From positions 1 through 28,679 of the IMG/VR virus record IMGVR_UViG_3300027963_000257: a stretch of DNA of 28,679 bases; one strand, 5' to 3'. This document shows, piece after piece, positions 6,144 through 18,671 of this stretch; position 1 is the stretch's first letter, and each line of letters begins with the position of its first letter. Under the pieces are notes generated by a model that saw only the letters and a list, made by a program, of their open reading frames with translations, did not search any database and was not told the origin of the DNA. The DNA is from a virus. The position numbers were made by a program, and so were the translations under genes.

Positions 6144-6790
6144 TGTCTTCTAAGAACCGCGTCTTTATCCCAGCCCCACCCAGCTTACCATTGGCTACGG
6201 ATCAGTACGAACGCCGCTATCAAGACCAATTTACCAATATTTTGCGTTTGTACTTCAACCAACTACAGAATTCGCTTGGAGAATTGTTTGGCACTAGTGG
6301 GGGGAAATACATTGCTTTTCCTTATGGGGCGTTTTCTGACTTTACAGACCAAACAACCACAATTAACACGGCAACCCTGATGGGGCTGTCTGTGACGGAT
6401 TTCTCTAACGAAGTGTCGTTGCAAACAGGATCAAAGATAACGGTAGCTAACGCCGGTGTATACAACCTACAGTTCAGTGTACAGCTTCAAAACTTGGATA
6501 ACGCGCCTCAAGATGTTTTTATTTGGTTAAAACAAAACGGCACGGACATTACAGGCTCCACAGGTAAAGTTGGTTTGCCTGCTCGTAAAAACCCGGGCGA
6601 TCCGTTCCATGACATTAAAGGCTGGAACTACTTTTTATCTATGAACGCCAATGACTACGTTCAAATCTACTGGTCAACAACCGATGTGGATGTGACCATA
6701 CAAACCTACGCGGCTTCTGGCACGCCTACTAAACCATCAACCGCCTCTGTCGTAGCCACACTTTCATTTGTGTCTGCGCTCTCAGCATGA
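6143..6790 (+). CDS. C1q-like tail fibre / knob protein
   Basis: 215 residues. The ATG shares its A with the previous stop (TAATG), implying coupled translation. Residues 1-55 carry a short helical segment (QYERRYQDQFTNILRLYFNQ) that probably trimerises or docks the protein. From about residue 58 to the end there is a C1q/TNF-like jelly-roll pattern: FPYGAFSDFTDQTTTINTAT, SKITVANAGVYNLQFSVQLQ, DVFIWLKQNGTDITGSTG, GWNYFLSMNANDYVQIYWST and a final ASVVATLSFVS strand. C1q-like heads occur at the tips of phage fibres and spikes and form trimers that bind receptors. Coupling to the hub-like gene suggests a structural partnership. Receptor and exact position in the virion are unknown. Confidence 0.8.
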   Translation: MSSKNRVFIPAPPSLPLATDQYERRYQDQFTNILRLYFNQLQNSLGELFGTSGGKYIAFPYGAFSDFTDQTTTINTATLMGLSVTDFSNEVSLQTGSKITVANAGVYNLQFSVQLQNLDNAPQDVFIWLKQNGTDITGSTGKVGLPARKNPGDPFHDIKGWNYFLSMNANDYVQIYWSTTDVDVTIQTYAASGTPTKPSTASVVATLSFVSALSA

Positions 6791-6812
6791 TAATATTAAC
6801 CACCCCCCATCT

Positions 6813-6819
6813 AAAGAGG
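6813..6819 (+). promoter_or_regulatory. Shine-Dalgarno deciding the start at ATG 6825
   Basis: AAAGAGG sits five bases before ATG 6825, favouring it over the in-frame ATG at 6768, which lies inside the preceding gene. This is one of the few gaps between plus-strand genes (34 bases, AT-rich, containing TAATATTA). Confidence 0.55.
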
Positions 6820-6824
6820 CAAAA

Positions 6825-8798
6825 ATGAGCCTACAGCTTGCAGCCCAACACCTTTCATCGCAGGGTCGTGGTAACGATTCCACGCTTGTACACATGTCGC
6901 CCCGTGAAGTTAAAAGCCTTAATGACTTGGCAATGGCGCATGGCGGGCAACTATCTATTAATCCACAGACGGGTTTACCCGAAGCTGGCTTTCTTTCATC
7001 TATTTTGCCTATGGTGGCTGGGGCGGCTTTGACTGCTACAGGCGTTGGTGCTCCTATGGCTGCTTTGATGGTTGGTGGCGGCATGACGCTTATGACTGGC
7101 AGTTTGGAAAAAGGTTTGATGGCTGGCTTGGGCGCTTATGGTGGCGCTAATTTGGGTGCGGGGTTAGCGGAAACTGCGACTACGATGAATCCTGACGTGA
7201 TTGCTGCACAGAATGAAGTGGTTAAAAACGCAACACAAAATCTTTATGACCCTGCTGGCACTTTATCCCCAGAAGCTTATGCATCTACTAAGCAAGCCGC
7301 AAACAATACACTTGCCGAAAGTTTAAAAACGGCTAGAGCTACTGCCGCTGGCCCCGATACTTTCATGGGCAAGCTCCAAGCGATGGGTAAAGGAGTTGGT
7401 TACCTTGGTCAAGAAGGCGGCTTGAGTAGTCTTTATCAAAACCTTGGCGGCTCACCTATGAGCCTGCTTAAAAATATAGGCCCTGCCGTTGCGCCGCTTG
7501 CTGGCGAACTTATGAAGCCAGAAAAACAAGAAGAAGAAGAAAAAGCCGACGCAGACATGGGTCAACGGTACGGGTTTTCCATGAATCCAGCGGGCGGGCA
7601 GTCACGTTCTTTGGGGGGCGCTCAGCCACAAGTTCAGCCGGGGCAAGATCCGTTTGCTAACACGTCATCTCCCACCACTACACCGTTCCCGACTTCACAA
7701 TTTGATTCTAGCGAGAAGCGTTACTTTGCGCCTTCATACACAAAGCTTACACCTGAGCAAGCCAAATCAATATATGGGTATGCTGAGGGCGGCGCAGCAC
7801 AAGCTAATCCACAGCCTGTCGAGAAGCCATTCCCCATGCCTCAATATACAAACGCAGGGAAACAGCCTCCCCAAGAGATCGAAGGGACTCCGGCGTTGGA
7901 AATGTTTAGACAGATGCAGGCGCAGCGTGCAGTTCAATCACAAACTCCTCAATATGCGTCTACTCCCGCCACGGGAGGCCCACCTGCCACAAACGCCCCT
8001 ACCCCCACTACAGTTGAAGAGTTGTACGGTACGTATTTAGGTCGTACCCCTGAAAAAGGTGGTTTAGAATTTTGGAATAAGCATTTTGGTTCTGACGTCG
8101 ATGCTAGCGAGATTGCTCGTTTTGAACACGCGACACGCCCAGAACTAGCGGCAAACAAAAAACTAGCGGAAAGCACGGGCGGTGGTTTGGCGCATGAGTA
8201 TGGGCAATACCTAAGACAAACGCGGGGTGAGCCAAGCCAATTACAAGCGCCCACTACGCCACCGCCAACAACGACAGGGCTAGCCGATTCTGGCTATACC
8301 TTTAACCCCATTACGCGGCAATACTCGCAGATTGCGGGAACTGCGCCATCAACCGAAGCCGAACCAGCGGCGGATGCTTTTAACATTGAAAACCGTCCCG
8401 TAATTGGCTATGACAGAAATGGTCAAAAGATTTATGGCGAGAGAAGAGGAGTGGGTGGGTTTGGCCTGAGCGGCAACTTGGGTGTGGGTCGTGCAGCGGG
8501 TGGCAGTATTTCTCACCTTGGCGACTACTCAGACGGCGGCAGACTGCTCCGTGGCCCCGGTGACGGTGTGTCTGATTCCATCCCTGCAATGATTGGTAAG
8601 AAGCAGCCTGCACGTTTAGCCGACGGTGAGTTTGTTGTACCTGCACGTATCGTTTCTGAGTTGGGCAATGGCTCAACTGAAGCTGGCGCACGTAAGTTGT
8701 ACGCAATGATGGACAGGATTCAGAAGGCTCGTGGCAAGACTGTCGGCAAGGGCAAGGTGGCAAAGAATAGCCGCTCTGAGAAATATTTGCCAGCATGA
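6825..8798 (+). CDS. Virion protein with DUF4214-like segment
   Basis: 657 residues. Residues 1-45 hold a conserved-looking leader (RGNDSTLVHMSPREVKSL). Residues about 55-120 are a glycine/alanine-rich hydrophobic stretch (SILPMVAGAALTATGVGAPM) that could insert in membranes. The middle is a low-complexity Pro/Gln/Thr linker. Residues about 395-445 read VEELYGTYLGRTPEKGGLEF with a following helix, matching the DUF4214 type found in secreted and phage proteins. The C-terminus (about 577-632) has GPGDGVSDSIPAMIGKKQPA, then LADGEFVVPARIV and GNGSTEAGARKLYAMMDRI, a recurring end of aquatic-phage virion proteins. Function is unknown; the hydrophobic block and context suit an internal or ejected virion protein. 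Confidence 0.75.
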   Translation: MSLQLAAQHLSSQGRGNDSTLVHMSPREVKSLNDLAMAHGGQLSINPQTGLPEAGFLSSILPMVAGAALTATGVGAPMAALMVGGGMTLMTGSLEKGLMAGLGAYGGANLGAGLAETATTMNPDVIAAQNEVVKNATQNLYDPAGTLSPEAYASTKQAANNTLAESLKTARATAAGPDTFMGKLQAMGKGVGYLGQEGGLSSLYQNLGGSPMSLLKNIGPAVAPLAGELMKPEKQEEEEKADADMGQRYGFSMNPAGGQSRSLGGAQPQVQPGQDPFANTSSPTTTPFPTSQFDSSEKRYFAPSYTKLTPEQAKSIYGYAEGGAAQANPQPVEKPFPMPQYTNAGKQPPQEIEGTPALEMFRQMQAQRAVQSQTPQYASTPATGGPPATNAPTPTTVEELYGTYLGRTPEKGGLEFWNKHFGSDVDASEIARFEHATRPELAANKKLAESTGGGLAHEYGQYLRQTRGEPSQLQAPTTPPPTTTGLADSGYTFNPITRQYSQIAGTAPSTEAEPAADAFNIENRPVIGYDRNGQKIYGERRGVGGFGLSGNLGVGRAAGGSISHLGDYSDGGRLLRGPGDGVSDSIPAMIGKKQPARLADGEFVVPARIVSELGNGSTEAGARKLYAMMDRIQKARGKTVGKGKVAKNSRSEKYLPA

Positions 8799-9271
8799 AT
8801 GCAGTTACAAACATCGTATACGCAAATGAAGACCCGTCTACATTTATAGACGAGTTGCAGATTCTTCTGCCCGAACATTATGATGAATTGTGTGTAACTA
8901 AGGACTTCCCCCTTCAACCGGACTATGTGGCGTATGGGCGTTTGGCGGTAAATAATATGTTGCGGTGCATCACATGTAGGGCGGAGGGTAATCTGATTGG
9001 TTACATACTCTTTATTGTGCACCCCCATTTACACTACATGACATGTAAGACCGCATTTGAAGACATATATTTTGTCAAAAAAGAATTCCGTCAAGGCCGA
9101 GTTGGGATAAGACTATTCCAATATGCCGAAGATGTGCTTAAGCAAGATGGTGTCAACAGAATCATCATGCACACCAAAATTCACTTGGATAATTCTCGGT
9201 TGTTTGAATACCTCGGGTACAAACATACCGACAAAATCTACACGAAGATATTAAGCACGGAGCCAGTATGA
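8795..9271 (+). CDS. GNAT family N-acetyltransferase
   Basis: 158 residues, ATGA overlaps at both ends. The GNAT core is visible: GNLIGYILFIVHP (strands 2-3 region), AFEDIYFVKKEFR (strand 4), and the acetyl-CoA pyrophosphate loop R99-Q-G-R-V-G104 followed by an amphipathic helix (IRLFQYAEDVL). RIIMHTKIH forms strand 5, and NSRLFEYLGYKHTDKIYTK is the usual C-terminal GNAT ending. GNAT enzymes move acetyl from acetyl-CoA to amines on proteins or small molecules. Locked between two virion genes by overlaps, it should be made late. It might modify a virion protein or a host target, but the substrate cannot be read from sequence. Confidence 0.82.
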   Translation: MNAVTNIVYANEDPSTFIDELQILLPEHYDELCVTKDFPLQPDYVAYGRLAVNNMLRCITCRAEGNLIGYILFIVHPHLHYMTCKTAFEDIYFVKKEFRQGRVGIRLFQYAEDVLKQDGVNRIIMHTKIHLDNSRLFEYLGYKHTDKIYTKILSTEPV

Positions 9272-12219
9272 ATTACTCACGCAGACAACTTTACGCCCTT
9301 GGCGAACCTATTGGTGAATCAGCTACCCGTTTAAAACTTGGCGGTCGCATCTATGGCGGCGGCGGGGATAGCGGCGGAAGTGCAGCACCACCAGATAAAA
9401 CAACGCAAATAGCAGAGTTGCCTGAGTGGGCACGCCCGTATGCTAAAGACACACTTGCTAAAGGCGCGGCTCTTACCGACATCAATCAAAACCCTTACCA
9501 ACAATATACCGGACAACGTATTGCTGGGTTTAACCCAATGCAACAGCGGGCACAGCAGGCTGCTGATTATATGCGGCCTTCCGAACAATTGGGAACCGCC
9601 ACGGACTTAGCCACTGCCGCAGGTATTGGGGCTTTGGGCACTAGCTATCAGCCCGGACAATTCACAAATCAGTTTACCGCGCCAGATAAATACGCTAATA
9701 CCACTTTTGGTTACGAAAGAGTAAACCCGTTTACACAGGAAGGCGGATCAATGTCCGCCGCTCAGATGATGGGCCCTGCTGACGTATCTGGGTTTGGTGG
9801 CGGCACTAAAGCAGCATCTACAAAATCATTTACTGATAAAGGTACGGCGGCTAGCTACATGTCACCCTACATGCAAAATGTGGTGGATATTCAACAACGT
9901 GAAGCCCAGCGTCAAGCGGATATAGCAGGAACACAACGCGGCGCTCAAGCTGCACAGGCAGGCGCTTTTGGTGGATCTCGTCAGGCTATTATGAACGCCG
10001 AAGCGGCACGGAATCTTGCCCAACAAAAAGGCGACATTACTGCCAAAGGGCAGCAAGACGCTTACCAACAAGCCATGCAGCAATTTAACGCTGAGCAAGG
10101 CTACGGTCTTACCGCGCAACAAGCCAACTTGCAAGCAGGGTTACAGTCCGCTTTAGCCAATCAACAAACGGGATACAACGTAGGTGCTCAGAATCTAAGC
10201 GCTCAGCAGCAAGCCAATGTACAAAACTTAGCCGCTAAGTTACAGACGCAAGGATTAAACGCTCAACAAGCAATGCAAGCCGCGCTTGCAAATCAACAAA
10301 TGGGTATGACGGCCCAGCAAGCGTCAGAACAATCTAAACAATACGGCTACGGTCAGGAAATGAATGCCGCGCAACAACGTGCTCAATATGGTCAAGCGGC
10401 ACAGCAACTGGCTGAGCAATCTCGTCAGTATGGCGCTGGTCTTGGTATGCAAGGCCTTCAAACTGCTCTACAAGGCTCAGGTCAGCTTGGTCAGTTAGGT
10501 GGTCAGCAGTTCCAACAGGGCATGGACATCAATAAGTTGCAAAGCGCATACGGCGGGCAGATGCAACAACAAGCTCAACGTTATTTGGATCAGGATTACC
10601 AAGATTTCCAGAACCAGCAGAACTATCCGTACAAACAGTTGGGCTTCATGTCCGACATGATCCGTGGCTTACCACTGGGTCAGCAATCTACGAGCACTAT
10701 GTATTCACAAGGCCCCGGCACAGTTCAAACATTAGCGGGCTTGGGTGGCGCTGCTTATGGCTTTGGCAAGTCAGGGCTGTTTGGTAAAGAGGGTGGTCTG
10801 ATGACCTCCTACGCAGAGGGCGGCGGGGTAACAAGCCAAGCCAACAAAGACAGCATTGTTGAAGATATGTATAGCATGGAGGGCTTGAAAAAAGCTAAAG
10901 AAGCCGCGCTTGCTCGCCGTGATATTGATACAGCAGAGGCAATTGATGAACGTATTGCCGAACTAAACGCAATACAAGCGCAGTCGGCTTCTATTGACCG
11001 TGGTCTTGGTTCAGCGTTTGACCAAATCCCAGAAGAGCAACAAGAAACAATGATGGCTGCTAATGGCGGTATTGTTGCGTTTGCTGGTGGCGGCACGTAC
11101 GGCAAGCGATTTGAACAGAGTTTGACTGATTTAAAAGCAATGGCTAACAAAGCACCGGTAGAGCCGACTCCAGAACAAAGAGATGAAGCTATTTCTACCC
11201 GTATCCCGATGTTGGAAAAACGCTATGGCCCTGACATCACCCAACCATATTTAGAAGAAACCAAAGCCAAGCGAGCAAAATTGCCTGAGCAAATGGAGAA
11301 AGATCAAGGGCTTGCTTTTGCTATGGCAAGTTTGGGTTTGTTGGCACGTAGCAAGAAACCCGGTGAAAGCCAAAAGCAGCAGCTTCTTTCCGGACTGGGT
11401 GAAGCTGGGCAACAATTTGTTGGCGAAGTAGGAAAACTTAAGAAAGAAAACCGTGAGGTTGATGACAAATTACGTCAATCTGAAATTTTGTTGGCTACTG
11501 CGCAGCAATCTCGTAAGGAAGGCTTGATTAATAAGGCAGATGCTGAAGAGACTCGTGCACAAGATTTGAAGAGAGATGCGTTCAAAACAAACCTTGGCGT
11601 GCAAGAAAAGGTTGCTCAACTTGAAAGCGGTTTGGCTGGAACTGAAATGCAAGGCGAAAACGCATTAAGAGTTGCAGGTGTTAGCGCTGCAAGCCATCTT
11701 GCCGCTGCAAGAATCAACAAAGAAGCTGGTGCAACAGCGGACCGACAAATTGCCGCATTGGCCGCAGACTTGAAGGAAAAGAACCCAAATATGTCTCCTG
11801 CGGAGATCAACGCCCGCGCCACAAAAGAATTCTTGAATTTAAGTGGTCGTTATCCCGGCAACGTAAAAGAAGATATTGCTCGTGAAACTTTGGACATGAA
11901 GAAGCTTGAATCAGCGGGTAAAGATTGGAAGTCCGCCATGATGAATCCCAAAGATCCCATATTCAAACAGGTTAAACAGCTTAATGCCGCCGACCCAAGC
12001 GGTGCTGCTGCTGAGGACTACAAGAGACGCTGGATTGCTGAACGTGCAGGTGGAGCAGGATCAAGTACGCCCGCACCTACAGACCAACCCCTACCGGTTA
12101 ATACTGGTATGCCAAGCCGAAGTGGGCCACCACAAAAACTTTCACAGGCTCAATATAATGCAGCGCCATCGGGTACTAGGTTTATTGCCCCTGATGGTAC
12201 AACCCGTATTAAACCGTAA
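9268..12219 (+). CDS. Large Gln/Ala-rich virion protein
   Basis: 983 residues, overlapping the acetyltransferase stop as ATGA. The N-terminus has RRQLYALGEPIGESATR and a Gly motif, KLGGRIYGGGGDSGG. Residues about 200-445 are strongly helical and rich in Gln and Ala, with degenerate repeats such as QQANLQAGLQSALANQQTG, NVQNLAAKLQTQGLNAQQ and QYGQAAQQLAEQSRQYGAG. Short glycine motifs recur at about 509 (GGLMTSYAEGGG) and 600 (GGIVAFAGGG). The C-terminal third is charged helical sequence ending in a short beta tail (APSGTRFIAPDGTTRIKP). There is no enzyme motif. Position between fibre genes and the giant protein, and Gln-rich helical composition, suggest an internal or ejected protein analogous in role (not in sequence) to T7 gp15. 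That role is inference. Confidence 0.72.
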   Translation: MNYSRRQLYALGEPIGESATRLKLGGRIYGGGGDSGGSAAPPDKTTQIAELPEWARPYAKDTLAKGAALTDINQNPYQQYTGQRIAGFNPMQQRAQQAADYMRPSEQLGTATDLATAAGIGALGTSYQPGQFTNQFTAPDKYANTTFGYERVNPFTQEGGSMSAAQMMGPADVSGFGGGTKAASTKSFTDKGTAASYMSPYMQNVVDIQQREAQRQADIAGTQRGAQAAQAGAFGGSRQAIMNAEAARNLAQQKGDITAKGQQDAYQQAMQQFNAEQGYGLTAQQANLQAGLQSALANQQTGYNVGAQNLSAQQQANVQNLAAKLQTQGLNAQQAMQAALANQQMGMTAQQASEQSKQYGYGQEMNAAQQRAQYGQAAQQLAEQSRQYGAGLGMQGLQTALQGSGQLGQLGGQQFQQGMDINKLQSAYGGQMQQQAQRYLDQDYQDFQNQQNYPYKQLGFMSDMIRGLPLGQQSTSTMYSQGPGTVQTLAGLGGAAYGFGKSGLFGKEGGLMTSYAEGGGVTSQANKDSIVEDMYSMEGLKKAKEAALARRDIDTAEAIDERIAELNAIQAQSASIDRGLGSAFDQIPEEQQETMMAANGGIVAFAGGGTYGKRFEQSLTDLKAMANKAPVEPTPEQRDEAISTRIPMLEKRYGPDITQPYLEETKAKRAKLPEQMEKDQGLAFAMASLGLLARSKKPGESQKQQLLSGLGEAGQQFVGEVGKLKKENREVDDKLRQSEILLATAQQSRKEGLINKADAEETRAQDLKRDAFKTNLGVQEKVAQLESGLAGTEMQGENALRVAGVSAASHLAAARINKEAGATADRQIAALAADLKEKNPNMSPAEINARATKEFLNLSGRYPGNVKEDIARETLDMKKLESAGKDWKSAMMNPKDPIFKQVKQLNAADPSGAAAEDYKRRWIAERAGGAGSSTPAPTDQPLPVNTGMPSRSGPPQKLSQAQYNAAPSGTRFIAPDGTTRIKP

Positions 12220-12227
12220 GGCACATC

Positions 12228-15200
12228 ATGGCAAAAGAATGGTGGGAAGATGCGCCAGTAGCACAAGAAAAACCTGCTGAGTGGTGGAAGGATGCCCCAA
12301 TTGCCAAAGAAGAAACTAAGCCTGAAGCAAAAGCAGGAGAGTGGTGGCAAGCCGCACCGGTTTTAACACCTACAGAACAACCGCAAGGCACTACATCAAA
12401 TCCGCTTATTGGGGCGATTGGTCGCACAGCTTCTTTGACTGGCGCTTTTGTAGATTCCGTAGTAGAAGTTGCCGAGCGAGTCGGTGACAAATTGGAATTG
12501 GCTGTGCCTCTGTCGGGCATAAGTCCCGAAGACATTAAAAACAAGAAACAGCTTCAGCCTTTGTTTGATTGGGCTAAATCGCTAAAAGATTTTGATAAGG
12601 ACTTGGACTACCAGCCAAGCACGCAACTTAAAGATCTTGCCCGTAACCCGCTTAATGCTGTTCCGTTTATTGCCGAGCGGGTAATAACATCCGTGCCTGA
12701 TATGGTCGGTGCAGTAAGAGTACCTGTTGCTTACGCCATGGCGCGTACAAAAGAAATTTTGGACGAGCGCGTTAAGAACGACGAAAAAACGCTTGACGAC
12801 GCCACTGTTGCAGACGTGACCGCTGCGGCTACCGCCGCTGTCTTTGAGCTTACATTTGAACGCTTTGCCACCAAAAGTTTGTTTAAACCCACTACTGGTG
12901 CAACAAAAACTGGGCGTATAGCAAAAGAGACAGGTATTCAGGCGGGTACTGAGGTTGCTGAAGAAGAAGCAGCGTATCTTGGTGAAGCCGCAGGGACTAA
13001 AAAAGGTCTTAGCGCAGAAGAGGCTTTGACTCGCGGTGCAGAAGCCGCACTTGTTGGTGGTGGTTTAGGCGCTACTGTACAAGGCGTTAAAGAAGTATTT
13101 GCTCCCGAAGCCGAAGCTCAAACTCCCCCACCTCCACCGGTAGGTTCTGCTGTACAACAAGCTGCGGCTACTCCCGGCCCCGGTATGCCTGCTATTGACC
13201 CTGCACGGGTTGAACAACTTACGCAAACATTTATTGACCAAGGGCTTGACCCCAGTCGTGCGCAGTTCCGTGCAGTTGAAGTGGCTACCAGAGAGGCTGA
13301 AGATCAAGCAGACGAACAAACGTCAGCCGGTGAACAAGCGTCAGCCGGTGAACAAGGGTTTATTCCAAACTTTACTAACTGGACAGACGCAGGGTTAGCT
13401 TCTACGTTGGAATACCAACTGGCTAAACCTGAAAACGAACAAAACCAACCACTCATTGCAGCGGTACAAACGGAGATACAACAACGTGCGGCAACTCAAG
13501 GAGAACCAGATGTTGGACAAACTATTGCCAAGCCAAGTGGAGTTAGCGTTCCAATGGCTGGACAGCCCAATACAGATACCACCGCCAGAGGAACTGGAAT
13601 CGCTGAGCCAAGTAGAGTGGTTCCTACTGGACAAGATGTTGCAGGAGTTGCTACGGGAGAAACAGTACAGCCCACTACAGTAGGGGGGTTAAATTTATCT
13701 CCTATCCCTTATGAATTTCGATCGCAGGCTGGACAAGGTCAACCCGTTGTAACAAATACGGGCGAAAATAACATAATCGACTACAGCGGTAGAAGAATTG
13801 TATTAGTCGATATAAACGGCGTGCAAGTGCCGTTCTATTTAAGTACCGGTAGCGGCGGGAAGGTAGATGTTCCTGCTGGTAAATGGTATCCATTTTTTGG
13901 TATTGGCGCTGATGGGTGGATAAACAAAACCGGCGGCAAGGAAATGGCTGGATACTACGGCAGTGAAGTGTTGCGCAACACTGCTGCAATGTTGGATAGC
14001 ACAATCGGGGATATACGTAACGATACTAACGTACCCAAAGTAGGGGCGTATGGCGCTCATATTGAAGCAATCAACGCGGGGTTTGACCCCGCTGAAAATG
14101 GCGCGGCTAATACGCTAACCAAAGTGCGTAGCAATATTGACTCTTTATTAAACAGGCTAAACAGCGCAGAACAAGCCGCGCTCCAAGAAGCCGCCACCGA
14201 AGGCGAACTGACGACTGAAGATCAAGCCGCGTTACAAGAAGAACTTGCCGCAGAACAAGCCAAGACCGATGACCAGTACGCCGAAGAAGCTGAAATACCT
14301 GAAAGCGTTGCAAATGTTGTCGGCGACTTGACCACTCTGCCTGCTGAAGAAGAGGCACCCGTAATAGTTGCCAAAGGTAAAACTGGGCCAAAAGGCCCTC
14401 GGCAAACCCCCGAACAAAAAGCTGCTTCAGATGAGCGCCGCAAGCAACAGACAAAGAACTATAAGCAAAATGTAAAAGCAGTTGATGCCGCTGAAGCTGC
14501 GCTCAATAACACTTTGACCGACTTAAAACCTGAAAACTACGGCAGTGATGCAGAACTTCAAGAAGGCGTAGAAAGCCAACGCATTAAAAAAATACAAGCA
14601 ATTAAATCTTTGCTGCTGTTGAACCGCGCCCTTAAAGGAACTACGCTTGGTAAGCGTGTAGCCGAGTTACTCAAGAACCCCAACATCACTGCGCAGGAAC
14701 TTGAGAACGTCAAAAAGGGCATCGCCGCTCAAGTATCTAAAGCTAATACGCAAGTAAAAGTTGGCCGAGCCGACGGCAGATTCAGCGACATGACAAATGG
14801 TCAACAAGCACTGCGTCATATCATCAAGACCGGTAATGCGTTCCAAAAATTCTTGGCTCAGCGTTTGTTGCCTTTTGTAAAAGATGTCAACTTCAAAGTA
14901 ATTGAGGAAGATGATGCGCTCCCAAGCCAGATCACTGAGGGTGGAGCAGAAGCTGATTGGGATGCGTCACGCGGTTTGTTCCTGCGTGTCGTGGCTACTG
15001 GCGAACGGTTTGTGTTTGTGCGCGGTATATCTGGTGGCCCAAGCCAAGGTATCAATAACGTCACTGTGCTGCACGAGATGCTGCACGCCGCACTTAACAA
15101 AAAGTTGGACTTGGCGCTTGATGCAATTCAATCTGGGTTTGACCGTAAGTCCGATTTAGCAACGGCTTACAACGCCTTACTCGGCACAATGAACCTGACA

Positions 15201-18200
15201 GTGGATCGAGTTAACGAAATGCGTGAAGCAGGCACACTGCCTGAGTTTATGGAAGACTTGATTTCAGCCAACATCTTTGGCGACCCCCGAGAGTTCGTTG
15301 CTTACGCAATGTCTGACCCCCGTTTCCAAAAGTTGTTGATGGAGACTGAAGGGCGTATTAAACAGTCGTTGTTTAATCGGTTTATCAACAACATACGTCA
15401 GTTCTTTAACATGGACGCAAGCCACACCAGCGCCCTATTAGACATCGTAACTATCACCGACATCATGTTGACCGCACGCAAGACACCCTTGATGCGTATG
15501 AAGGAAGCTGAAGAAAAACTCAGCGGGAACATGGCGCAAGTTTCGTCGGCTATTAAAGCCAAAAAGCAAAGAGTAAACGCCTCACTTCTTAAGATTCAGC
15601 GCGGAGATTTTGCTGATGCTATGCGTGAGATACCTACGCTTGTAGGCTTGCGCGATCAACAGACATTTCTTGACGTATTGAATTCTTCTTGGGTAGGGTT
15701 TACTAACTTTAAGTTGCAGCAGCTTTTACCTGCTATGCAGACAGAGGCTTTGGTTCAGTGGGCAGACAGACTCGGCATCAAGGGTATAAAAGAATCTTGG
15801 CAATACCTTGGTGACATGGCAGCTATGCGTAATAGCCTTACCACAAAAATGGTGCCTATATCTGATGCGCTAACTAAGTTGGCGGCTAAAGCGCCCGAGC
15901 AATTCCAGCGTTTAGCAAGCGTGATGCACTACTCTACGTTGCTGTACCGCGACCCAACCAAACCGTTCTACTTAACAGCAGAAACTGGCGCAAAACGCGA
16001 ACACCATGCCTTTGCTACCAAAGCTGCAAGAGATGCATACATACAAGCAAACAATGCTCGCCTACAAACTTTAGGTAGCATGAAGACCGTTGAAGATACT
16101 GACTTAGAAAATCTGTGGAACGGTTTGACCGACGCAAACAAAAAGTTGTATGAGCAAGCAAGGGACTTCTACAAAGGCAACCACGAGCTTTATCACCAAC
16201 TTCTTGAAGAGCAAATTGCTAACTCAAAACTTGTTGGAGCCGCAGGTAACGCCAACTCACCCAAGGGTAAGCTGATTGCTCAGATTAAACAGATGTACGA
16301 AGATGGTAAAAATCTGTACCCGTACTTCCCTCTTATGCGCTATGGTCAATATTGGATACGTGTAGGTAAGGGTGTCGGTCGTGAGTTCTACATGTTTGAA
16401 AATGCGTTTGACCGCAATATGTTCTTGCGCCAGCGTTTCCGTCAACTGCAAGCGGCGGGTGAGACACGATCCTTAAAAGAAATGTTGGAAGCCGAAGCAA
16501 TTGACATGGGTAATGACTTGTCTAATGCGCGTAAGAAAATGGAAGCGGATGCCAGCGGGCTTGTAAAAGAAATGTTCAAAGCCATTGATGACGGAGCTAA
16601 GAACGGCACTTTGGATGCCAAGGCAATTGAGGAACTTAAAGACCAAATCTACCAAATGTATTTGCAGACTTTGCCTGATCGCAATTTCCGCAGACAGTTC
16701 ATGCACCGCCAAGGCACAACCGGTTTCACAGGCGACATTGGTCGTAACTTTGTAGAGACCGGCACAAACATGGCCAATCAGTTGGCTCGTATCAAGTTTG
16801 GCCCCAAAATCATGGGTGAAATTGAACGCGCCCAAGATTTACTTAAAGGTAACCCTGATAAGGCAAAACTTGGTGAGTTTGTTACTGAGATGCGTATGCG
16901 TGCCGAGCAGCAAGTACGCCCAGAGCCAGAAGACAGTTTCGGGTTCCAAGCATCTAACTTCCTTAACCAGTCGGCGTATTTGTGGTTGATGACTTCTGTA
17001 AAGACAGCCGCCGCGCAGATGACTGCAATGCCTATTTTTGTTGGGCCAGTGCTCACATCCAATCACGGGTTCAATCCGTTTAGGGTTGCTGCTTCACTGT
17101 CAAAGTCATTAGCTATATTTGGCACTACAGGTATCAAGCGCACGGCTGATGACGGCACAGTTAGTTACGAATTTCCATCTATGGCAAACAATCAGTTGGT
17201 CAAGTTAAGCGGGGATGAAAAGCTTGCTGCTCAATATATGTTAGATCGGGGTATTAGCGAATCTACACAAACCAATGACTTGATGAACCGCAAAAGCGTA
17301 TCGACTAAACAATCTACAAGCGTAGCGCGTAGAACAATGGGTGCCGCAGCTACAGTAATGACAGGCTTGTTTCATCATGCCGAGCGCATGGTGCGTGAAG
17401 TGACGTTTATGACCTCGTACCGTTTGTATCGTGATGATATAAATCCGGACACAAAGAAAAAGTACACCCACGAAGAAGCTTTACGTGCAGCCGAGGCTGA
17501 AACTCGTGAAGCTCTAGGTAACTACCACGCATCAAACCGCCCTCGTGGTTTGATTGCCAACGCCGAGCGCCAAGTTTTAATCAACGCTCACAAGCCAACA
17601 GGCCGAGCCATTCTTCAGTTCAAGATGTTCCCTGCGTTTGTGACTACGTTCTTTATGCGTAACGCCTACCGCATGTTTGCCGGGTTAGATGCCAAAGACC
17701 GCGCCAAAGCTATGACTCAGTTTGTCGGCACATTGACCATGTCCACTGCACTTGCTGGCTATGTCGGTATTCCCGGCGCAACAATGGCTATGGGTGCTAT
17801 CCAAGGCGCAATGAACGTTTACCGTGATTTATTCGGGGACGAAGATGAAGATGACCCATTAGAAAAACGTAACTTAGAATTATGGTTCCGTAACGTATGG
17901 CTACCACAGACTTTTGGCAATGTGAAAATTGGCGATGCTACTTTGGATGAAGTTTTAGACAGAGGGCTTATTTCTACCATGACTGGCTATGACATTTCTA
18001 GCAGCTTGTCTATGAATAATATGTGGTTCCCCGAGGTTAAAGAGTCGGCTACGGCTGCGGCGGAAATGCAAGAGTACCTTATGTCTTTGCTAGGGCCGGG
18101 CGCTTCTTTGTACTTCAAGCAAATACCGCAAGCAATTGACTACTTCAACAAAGGGGAAGTTATGCGGGGTGTTGAACAACTTGCCCCTGCGTTTGCTCGC

Positions 18201-18671
18201 GGCGCTTTTACCGCTGCCCGGTACGGAAAAGAAGGTGCTCTTACTTCAACAGGCTCAGCCATTAAGGAAGCCAAGGAGTTTACTGAAGGGCAATTGTGGG
18301 CACAGTCTATGGGCTTTGCTACTACAGGTTTGGTTGCTCAACGAGAAGCAATTTTTAAACTGCAAGGTGAGATCCTTAAAGTTAGACAAGAACGCACCAA
18401 ACTGTTAGACCGATTGGATTTGGAAATTAATAAAGGCGATGATGAAGATGTTGAAAAGGTGTTGGAGAAAATTCAAAAGTTCAACAGCCGAAACCCCTTT
18501 GCAATGATCGAGTACGAAAATATTGAGCAGTCTCTAGATAAACAAGCTAAGCGCCGGATGCAAGCCGACCGAGGTATGCCCATAGATGAAAGGTATTTCC
18601 CACAGGTTGCGCCAGTATTAGAAGCGCCCGGCAAGAAGTTGGAACGCGAAGCGGCCAAGGCTCGGGAATAA
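12228..18671 (+). CDS. Giant internal virion / large polyvalent protein with metallopeptidase-like motif
   Basis: 2147 residues, AAGG seven bases before the ATG. Residues 4-45 carry three EWW-x-(D/A)AP repeats. Residues about 190-290 include Ala-rich helices; about 330-520 is a Gln/Glu linker with an 18-bp tandem repeat. Residues 949-953 are HEMLH in the context VTVLHEMLHAALNK, with a downstream GDPREFVAYAMSDP (E1022), the HEXXH...E layout of gluzincin-type zinc peptidases. The C-terminal part (about 1650-2147) has a hydrophobic stretch (TLTMSTALAGYVGIPGA), an acidic DEDEDDPLEKRN and RYGKEGALTSTGSAIKEAK, resembling the LPD38 domain of large polyvalent proteins. Such proteins are carried in the capsid and delivered with DNA in podoviruses. 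Peptidase activity and ejection are inference. It is the last plus-strand gene. Confidence 0.78.
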   Translation: MAKEWWEDAPVAQEKPAEWWKDAPIAKEETKPEAKAGEWWQAAPVLTPTEQPQGTTSNPLIGAIGRTASLTGAFVDSVVEVAERVGDKLELAVPLSGISPEDIKNKKQLQPLFDWAKSLKDFDKDLDYQPSTQLKDLARNPLNAVPFIAERVITSVPDMVGAVRVPVAYAMARTKEILDERVKNDEKTLDDATVADVTAAATAAVFELTFERFATKSLFKPTTGATKTGRIAKETGIQAGTEVAEEEAAYLGEAAGTKKGLSAEEALTRGAEAALVGGGLGATVQGVKEVFAPEAEAQTPPPPPVGSAVQQAAATPGPGMPAIDPARVEQLTQTFIDQGLDPSRAQFRAVEVATREAEDQADEQTSAGEQASAGEQGFIPNFTNWTDAGLASTLEYQLAKPENEQNQPLIAAVQTEIQQRAATQGEPDVGQTIAKPSGVSVPMAGQPNTDTTARGTGIAEPSRVVPTGQDVAGVATGETVQPTTVGGLNLSPIPYEFRSQAGQGQPVVTNTGENNIIDYSGRRIVLVDINGVQVPFYLSTGSGGKVDVPAGKWYPFFGIGADGWINKTGGKEMAGYYGSEVLRNTAAMLDSTIGDIRNDTNVPKVGAYGAHIEAINAGFDPAENGAANTLTKVRSNIDSLLNRLNSAEQAALQEAATEGELTTEDQAALQEELAAEQAKTDDQYAEEAEIPESVANVVGDLTTLPAEEEAPVIVAKGKTGPKGPRQTPEQKAASDERRKQQTKNYKQNVKAVDAAEAALNNTLTDLKPENYGSDAELQEGVESQRIKKIQAIKSLLLLNRALKGTTLGKRVAELLKNPNITAQELENVKKGIAAQVSKANTQVKVGRADGRFSDMTNGQQALRHIIKTGNAFQKFLAQRLLPFVKDVNFKVIEEDDALPSQITEGGAEADWDASRGLFLRVVATGERFVFVRGISGGPSQGINNVTVLHEMLHAALNKKLDLALDAIQSGFDRKSDLATAYNALLGTMNLTVDRVNEMREAGTLPEFMEDLISANIFGDPREFVAYAMSDPRFQKLLMETEGRIKQSLFNRFINNIRQFFNMDASHTSALLDIVTITDIMLTARKTPLMRMKEAEEKLSGNMAQVSSAIKAKKQRVNASLLKIQRGDFADAMREIPTLVGLRDQQTFLDVLNSSWVGFTNFKLQQLLPAMQTEALVQWADRLGIKGIKESWQYLGDMAAMRNSLTTKMVPISDALTKLAAKAPEQFQRLASVMHYSTLLYRDPTKPFYLTAETGAKREHHAFATKAARDAYIQANNARLQTLGSMKTVEDTDLENLWNGLTDANKKLYEQARDFYKGNHELYHQLLEEQIANSKLVGAAGNANSPKGKLIAQIKQMYEDGKNLYPYFPLMRYGQYWIRVGKGVGREFYMFENAFDRNMFLRQRFRQLQAAGETRSLKEMLEAEAIDMGNDLSNARKKMEADASGLVKEMFKAIDDGAKNGTLDAKAIEELKDQIYQMYLQTLPDRNFRRQFMHRQGTTGFTGDIGRNFVETGTNMANQLARIKFGPKIMGEIERAQDLLKGNPDKAKLGEFVTEMRMRAEQQVRPEPEDSFGFQASNFLNQSAYLWLMTSVKTAAAQMTAMPIFVGPVLTSNHGFNPFRVAASLSKSLAIFGTTGIKRTADDGTVSYEFPSMANNQLVKLSGDEKLAAQYMLDRGISESTQTNDLMNRKSVSTKQSTSVARRTMGAAATVMTGLFHHAERMVREVTFMTSYRLYRDDINPDTKKKYTHEEALRAAEAETREALGNYHASNRPRGLIANAERQVLINAHKPTGRAILQFKMFPAFVTTFFMRNAYRMFAGLDAKDRAKAMTQFVGTLTMSTALAGYVGIPGATMAMGAIQGAMNVYRDLFGDEDEDDPLEKRNLELWFRNVWLPQTFGNVKIGDATLDEVLDRGLISTMTGYDISSSLSMNNMWFPEVKESATAAAEMQEYLMSLLGPGASLYFKQIPQAIDYFNKGEVMRGVEQLAPAFARGAFTAARYGKEGALTSTGSAIKEAKEFTEGQLWAQSMGFATTGLVAQREAIFKLQGEILKVRQERTKLLDRLDLEINKGDDEDVEKVLEKIQKFNSRNPFAMIEYENIEQSLDKQAKRRMQADRGMPIDERYFPQVAPVLEAPGKKLEREAAKARE
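12237..12362 (+). repeat. Three EWW-x-(D/A)AP coding repeats at the N-terminus of the giant protein
   Basis: Residues 4-11 EWWEDAPV, 18-25 EWWKDAPI and 38-45 EWWQAAPV, separated by Lys/Glu/Ala-rich linkers of 6 and 12 residues. The repeats diverge at the third base, so they are selected at protein level rather than recently duplicated. Confidence 0.8.
13314..13356 (+). repeat. 18-bp in-frame tandem repeat, 2.4 copies
   Basis: Two 18-bp units differing at one base (13314-13331 and 13332-13349) plus seven bases of a third encode EQTSAG, EQASAG and EQ inside the linker of the giant protein. The unit is a multiple of three, so copy changes keep frame. Confidence 0.8.

Follow-up and report, generated by a model that had tools for sequence, protein, structure and literature searches.

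Does an HEXXH motif deep inside a giant phage protein mark a working peptidase, and if so, of which family and to what end? The window analysed here (28,679 nucleotides, positions 1 to 28,679 of IMG/VR record IMGVR_UViG_3300027963_000257) encodes a protein of 2147 residues, in which the initial annotation had noticed HEMLH at residues 949–953 and a spaced glutamate, E1022; both lie where it placed them. The features on which the argument draws are as follows.

9268..12219, + strand: upstream ejection-protein gene, 983 aa (PHROG 4287 'DNA ejection protein', E = 2.5e-5), which adjoins the 2147-aa gene in relatives
12228..18671, + strand: polyvalent-type ejection protein, 2147 aa, last gene of the structural operon; its C-terminal half matches PHROG 10089, 30335 and 11358 and Pfam LPD39
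13683..14147, + strand: variable cassette, residues ~486–640, not found in the other relatives fetched
14823..15359, + strand: predicted zincin-like metallopeptidase (MPTase) domain, residues 866–1044, delimited by AlphaFold2, a PHROG 2206 match and family alignments
15072..15086, + strand: HEMLH, residues 949–953, two predicted zinc ligands and the general base; H, E and H invariant
15291..15293, + strand: E1022, predicted third zinc ligand, invariant, in a helix that follows the HEXXH helix
15795..16226, + strand: LPD39 (PF18858), residues 1190–1333 (Pfam E = 2.2e-8, 34.4 bits against a cut-off of 27)
15891..18590, + strand: C-terminal region common to giant 'DarB-like'/PLxRFG podovirus proteins, residues 1222–2121

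By sequence comparison, the giant protein is part of a podovirus-type ejection module. Upstream of its gene lie genes for a holin, an endolysin, a virion structural protein (PHROG 3287), a tail-type protein, a GNAT acetyltransferase and the ejection protein, while a primase/helicase, a helicase and a DNA polymerase follow downstream in convergent orientation. In relatives, too, the head gene is followed by the tail-type, ejection and giant-protein genes and then by the convergent primase, and N4 gp50 likewise closes the block of structural genes; from this we infer that the giant protein is packaged and ejected. Its status as a virion protein, taken for granted in the initial annotation, thus derives from relatives and gene order, and its ejection with the DNA is probable given this order and its homology to ejection proteins. 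Within the same operon, the tail-type gene (6768–8798) contains a stretch of ~95 residues that is 80–98% conserved in many relatives, with the remainder unmatched, a pattern like that of exchanged tail fibres or spikes. The GNAT-type acetyltransferase gene (PHROG 1249; 8795–9271), located between the tail-type and ejection genes, is present in few relatives.

The C-terminal ~900 residues of the protein are of the type found in giant 'DarB-like' podovirus proteins with LPD39, PHROG 10089 being the DarB-like family; LPD39 itself is potentially enzymatic in the view of Iyer et al. (PMC5512222). A comparison of this half with the C-terminal regions of the phiKMV and N4 proteins stayed below threshold, with only a 63-column hint for phiKMV (hhalign E = 0.055). 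No virion RNA polymerase (vRNAP) domain was detected with Pfam in the 2147-aa protein, whereas N4 gp50 shows four. Pfam likewise detected no SLT or lysozyme domain in it, PHROG 342 is not among the matches listed for it, and no SLT match was listed for ten relatives in IMG/VR, whose records are possibly fragments. The N-terminal half is more variable. The cassette at 13683–14147 was found only in near-identical records of the same virus, and relatives carry other sequence between the conserved 413–485 block and residue ~640; within the cassette, 38 residues resemble structural proteins of Cellulophaga phages (54%, E = 3e-3). An in-frame tandem repeat with an 18-base unit and 2.4 copies is located in a linker region at 13314–13356. 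One relative (L040:6502-13977) has an extra insert of ~740 residues between the MPTase and LPD39 domains, with matches to a GHKL ATPase (HATPase_c) and a YgjP-like metallopeptidase.

Is the motif more than a chance occurrence? For a protein with 17 histidines and 164 glutamates the expected number of HEXXH motifs is 0.01 (0.007 in shuffles), and two are observed. The second, HELYH at residue 1319, provides an internal control, because its histidine positions vary freely: among 47 relatives the first is histidine in 17 and isoleucine in 18, and we rejected this motif as a second active site. A first scan of IMG/VR yielded 8 relatives of the domain and a second scan, its alignment also containing phiKMV gp37, 73 loci. 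Across 38 non-redundant viral domain sequences, with 26–87% identity to that of the window, H949, E950, H953 and E1022 are invariant without exception, which is the outcome that the initial annotation had proposed as a check. The alignment has 247 columns, of which only 12 are invariant, and all four residues fall among these (p ~3e-6 for randomly drawn columns). They are also kept in 13 of 13 cultured-phage proteins examined, and in PhiM1, although in this alignment, which was fixed in length onto the family, the placement of the glutamate in N4, Pastis and LIMElight relies on the pattern E(F/L)(V/I/L/M)(A/S/T) rather than on overall similarity. Among close relatives the domain is under strong purifying selection, with dN/dS of ~0.06–0.11 (NG86).

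Structure prediction from the family alignment with AlphaFold2 gives a confident domain for residues 866–1044 (pLDDT 91.0, pTM 0.85) and a similar result for the longer 845–1091 (pLDDT 86.6, pTM 0.83). The elements follow in the order helix, strand, two strands, long HEXXH helix, insert helices and short glutamate helix, with H949 near the start of the HEXXH helix and E1022 near the start of the short helix, and the flanking segments that had earlier been taken for helices are helical in the models. The core of the polyvalent MPTase domain is described with the same order in PMC5512222. The structure prediction and fold search suggested in the initial annotation thus gave a confidently predicted domain with the zincin order of elements, but the search of the PDB with the long and trimmed models returned no significant match to a solved zincin (best E = 0.66 and 0.11, respectively). 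The best rows for 866–1044 are anthrax lethal factor chains (E = 0.11–0.13, top probability 0.54), below significance; lethal factor is also the HHpred match that Iyer et al. give for this domain type (PMC5512222). Among viral models, Foldseek retrieved an internal core protein of the phiKMV type, a virion RNA polymerase from Schitoviridae and a number of 'large polyvalent protein' models with E values from 1e-12 to 1e-3, and weaker, non-significant rows included the names peptidase M34, SprT and IrrE.

To which family does the domain belong? It matches positions 1987–2263 of PHROG 2206, the N4-type virion RNA polymerase (E = 3.3e-12), and phiKMV gp37 matches the same region with E = 2.5e-17. 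A family profile built without phiKMV retrieves phiKMV gp37 (domain E = 1.5e-25) and a Cbunavirus vRNAP (1e-8) and reaches N4 vRNAP weakly, at TLIHELVHAST...EFMAWG; in these hits the catalytic residues are aligned. It was on this N4 region that Iyer et al. based their original definition of the MPTase domain in 2017 (PMC5512222), and a 2025 cryo-EM preprint notes an HExxH in the C1 domain of N4 vRNAP, residues 2124–2375 (PMC12633501). Because the match falls on the very region of that definition, the domain is, by homology, a member of the already described MPTase family and not new in kind; Iyer et al. present MPTase as the commonest domain type of the 'polyvalent proteins' (PMC5512222). The window protein combines what characterizes the N4 vRNAP clade of this family, namely HEXXH with a downstream glutamate, homology to the vRNAP region, the predicted order of elements, and a large multidomain protein with LPD39. 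Therefore zinc peptidase is the right reading, and conservation, predicted fold and homology together support a real domain over a chance motif, with the zincin, or gluzincin-type, layout first proposed for it. No curated Pfam peptidase model rose above its cut-off over the domain in the 2147-aa protein and its relatives, where only noise was seen, and no relative could be confirmed when the family alignment was run against bacterial and archaeal genomes.

What might such a domain do? We consider it likely that residues 866–1044 are a catalytically competent MPTase-clade zincin that cleaves peptide bonds early in infection. H949, H953 and E1022 would hold the zinc and E950 would activate water. 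In zincins, the HEXXH glutamate serves as general base without binding the zinc; E950 is nonetheless invariant, and from this we infer catalysis. The giant protein would be packaged whole, leave the virion with or before the DNA and refold in the envelope or cytoplasm, where the domain would then cleave one or more peptide bonds. One of two roles suggested at the outset, that virion proteins are processed ahead of packaging, is disfavoured in this family: N4 vRNAP goes into the virion unprocessed (PMC5512222), and PhiM1 TEP is modelled in the virion on both sides of the domain (PMC11440229). Action after ejection is the best reading, and the other suggested role, the cutting of a host protein at the start of infection, is possible. 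A host protein, in the envelope or cytoplasm, would be the likelier substrate, with self-release second, because phiKMV-type relatives keep the site without a recognised cargo enzyme. The literature consulted contains no report of proteolysis by any relative, and the N4 vRNAP preprint notes the motif only (PMC12633501).

Self-release deserves attention as an alternative in its own right. The domain has the variable N-terminal half on one side and the conserved C-terminal half on the other, and once it has entered it could cleave the chain that carries it, releasing modules such as the variable N-terminal cassette or the LPD39/DarB-like half. Such processing was proposed for polyvalent proteins, with an argument from P1 DdrB, but the same source describes N4 vRNAP, ArdC and TraC1 as transferred uncut (PMC5512222). 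Together with the cargo-less phiKMV and PhiM1 gp16-type proteins, in which the active site is kept, this makes self-processing somewhat doubtful. Improbable, in our assessment, is a purely structural role, in which the domain binds zinc or only maintains its fold as a rigid ejectosome part and performs no catalysis. The homologous PhiM1 domain is inserted in the ejectosome hub (PMC11440229) and the MPTase-containing region is needed for encapsidation of N4 vRNAP (PMC5512222), but a purely structural site would not need the E950 found in all relatives. The HExxH motif alone cannot separate a peptidase from an oxygenase of the alpha-ketoglutarate-HExxH type, and the N4 preprint mentions radical-SAM/HExxH proteins beside zincins (PMC12633501); however, the invariant distant helical glutamate and the helix/three-strand/helix order fit zincins, and make an oxygenase very unlikely.

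The last alternative comes from database annotation. phiKMV, phiNV3, LIMElight and PhiM1 carry the MPTase domain too, in their gp16-type ejection proteins, and phiKMV-type gp16 homologues are annotated 'internal virion protein with endolysin domain'. PHROG 342 has a corresponding name, and PhiM1 TEP Asp268–Asp528 is called 'endolysin/exotransglycosidase-like' in PMC11440229. If these labels were right, the domain in the window would be an endolysin or transglycosylase, which is scarcely credible as the sequences contradict it. T7 gp16 has an SLT domain at 15–127 and no match to the MPTase family, whereas Pfam finds no SLT or lysozyme domain in phiKMV gp37, PhiM1 TEP or the phiNV3 and LIMElight proteins. 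Moreover, the PHROG 342 matches of phiKMV gp37 and PhiM1 TEP start only at profile positions 168 and 192, respectively, past the SLT part, and the protein of Limnohabitans phage YIMV22061 carries both SLT (16–118) and MPTase (~600–740) domains as separate units. The phiKMV lysozyme is found in gp36. In PhiM1 TEP, which the family profile recovers with E = 1.9e-4 in a PDB-wide search and a wider profile with 5.6e-21 in a two-sequence search, the segment 268–528 contains HEAAH at 385 and a downstream HEF, and we read it as a metallopeptidase domain. The 'endolysin domain' annotation of phiKMV-type proteins thus looks wrong, and the label appears to be inherited from T7 gp16 (by loci L009, L092, L093, L098, L101 and other gp16-type genes, of which those scanned lack SLT and have the zincin-type domain instead). 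We found no paper on phiKMV-type metalloproteases in the open literature, most subscription journals being outside the scope of the search.

Returning to the peptidase reading, a broader proposal can be put forward only tentatively: short-tailed phages may commonly carry a zinc protease in the ejectosome that has gone unnoticed behind the label 'internal virion protein with endolysin domain'. In phiKMV-, PhiM1- and N4-type phages as well as this uncultured group, it would act in the envelope or cytoplasm while the genome enters, and cut a host protein. The MPTase domain type was known; what is added is its extension to culturable phages. The link to phiKMV gp37 and PhiM1 TEP, from phages that can be grown and have solved virion structures, makes the question of the substrate of a polyvalent peptidase testable, and an annotation carried by many phiKMV-type phage records is called into question.

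Among known systems, the giant DarB-like/PLxRFG proteins of Skulduggery, Pavtok and LASTA share with the window protein their homologous C-terminal 900 residues. The Skulduggery protein is larger, ~3700 aa, with methyltransferase and other domains; its open frame (SKUL_28, L099) has HEAFH at residue ~2503, before the shared LPD39/C-terminal part, in a region that gave no match to the MPTase family profile and may represent a different MPTase clade at the equivalent place. With the N4 vRNAP type of polyvalent-protein MPTase (PMC5512222), the window domain shares homology, HEXXH with a helical glutamate, the three-strand core, a giant and probably ejected protein, and a neighbouring LPD domain. 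As in the C1 domain of N4 vRNAP, the T-x-x-HExxH ... EF(V/M)A pair is aligned in place and followed by a large C-terminal region, but overall identity is very low, the downstream regions have no detectable relation, and the window protein has a C-terminal half of the LPD39/DarB-like type and no matched RNA polymerase module. phiKMV gp37 and PhiM1 TEP (PDB 9sfn_G, 8vb2_A) differ from the 2147-aa protein in their length of 1263–1337 aa and their endolysin-containing label, yet they have the same domain with all four residues, in an ejectosome protein encoded beside a gp15-type gene.
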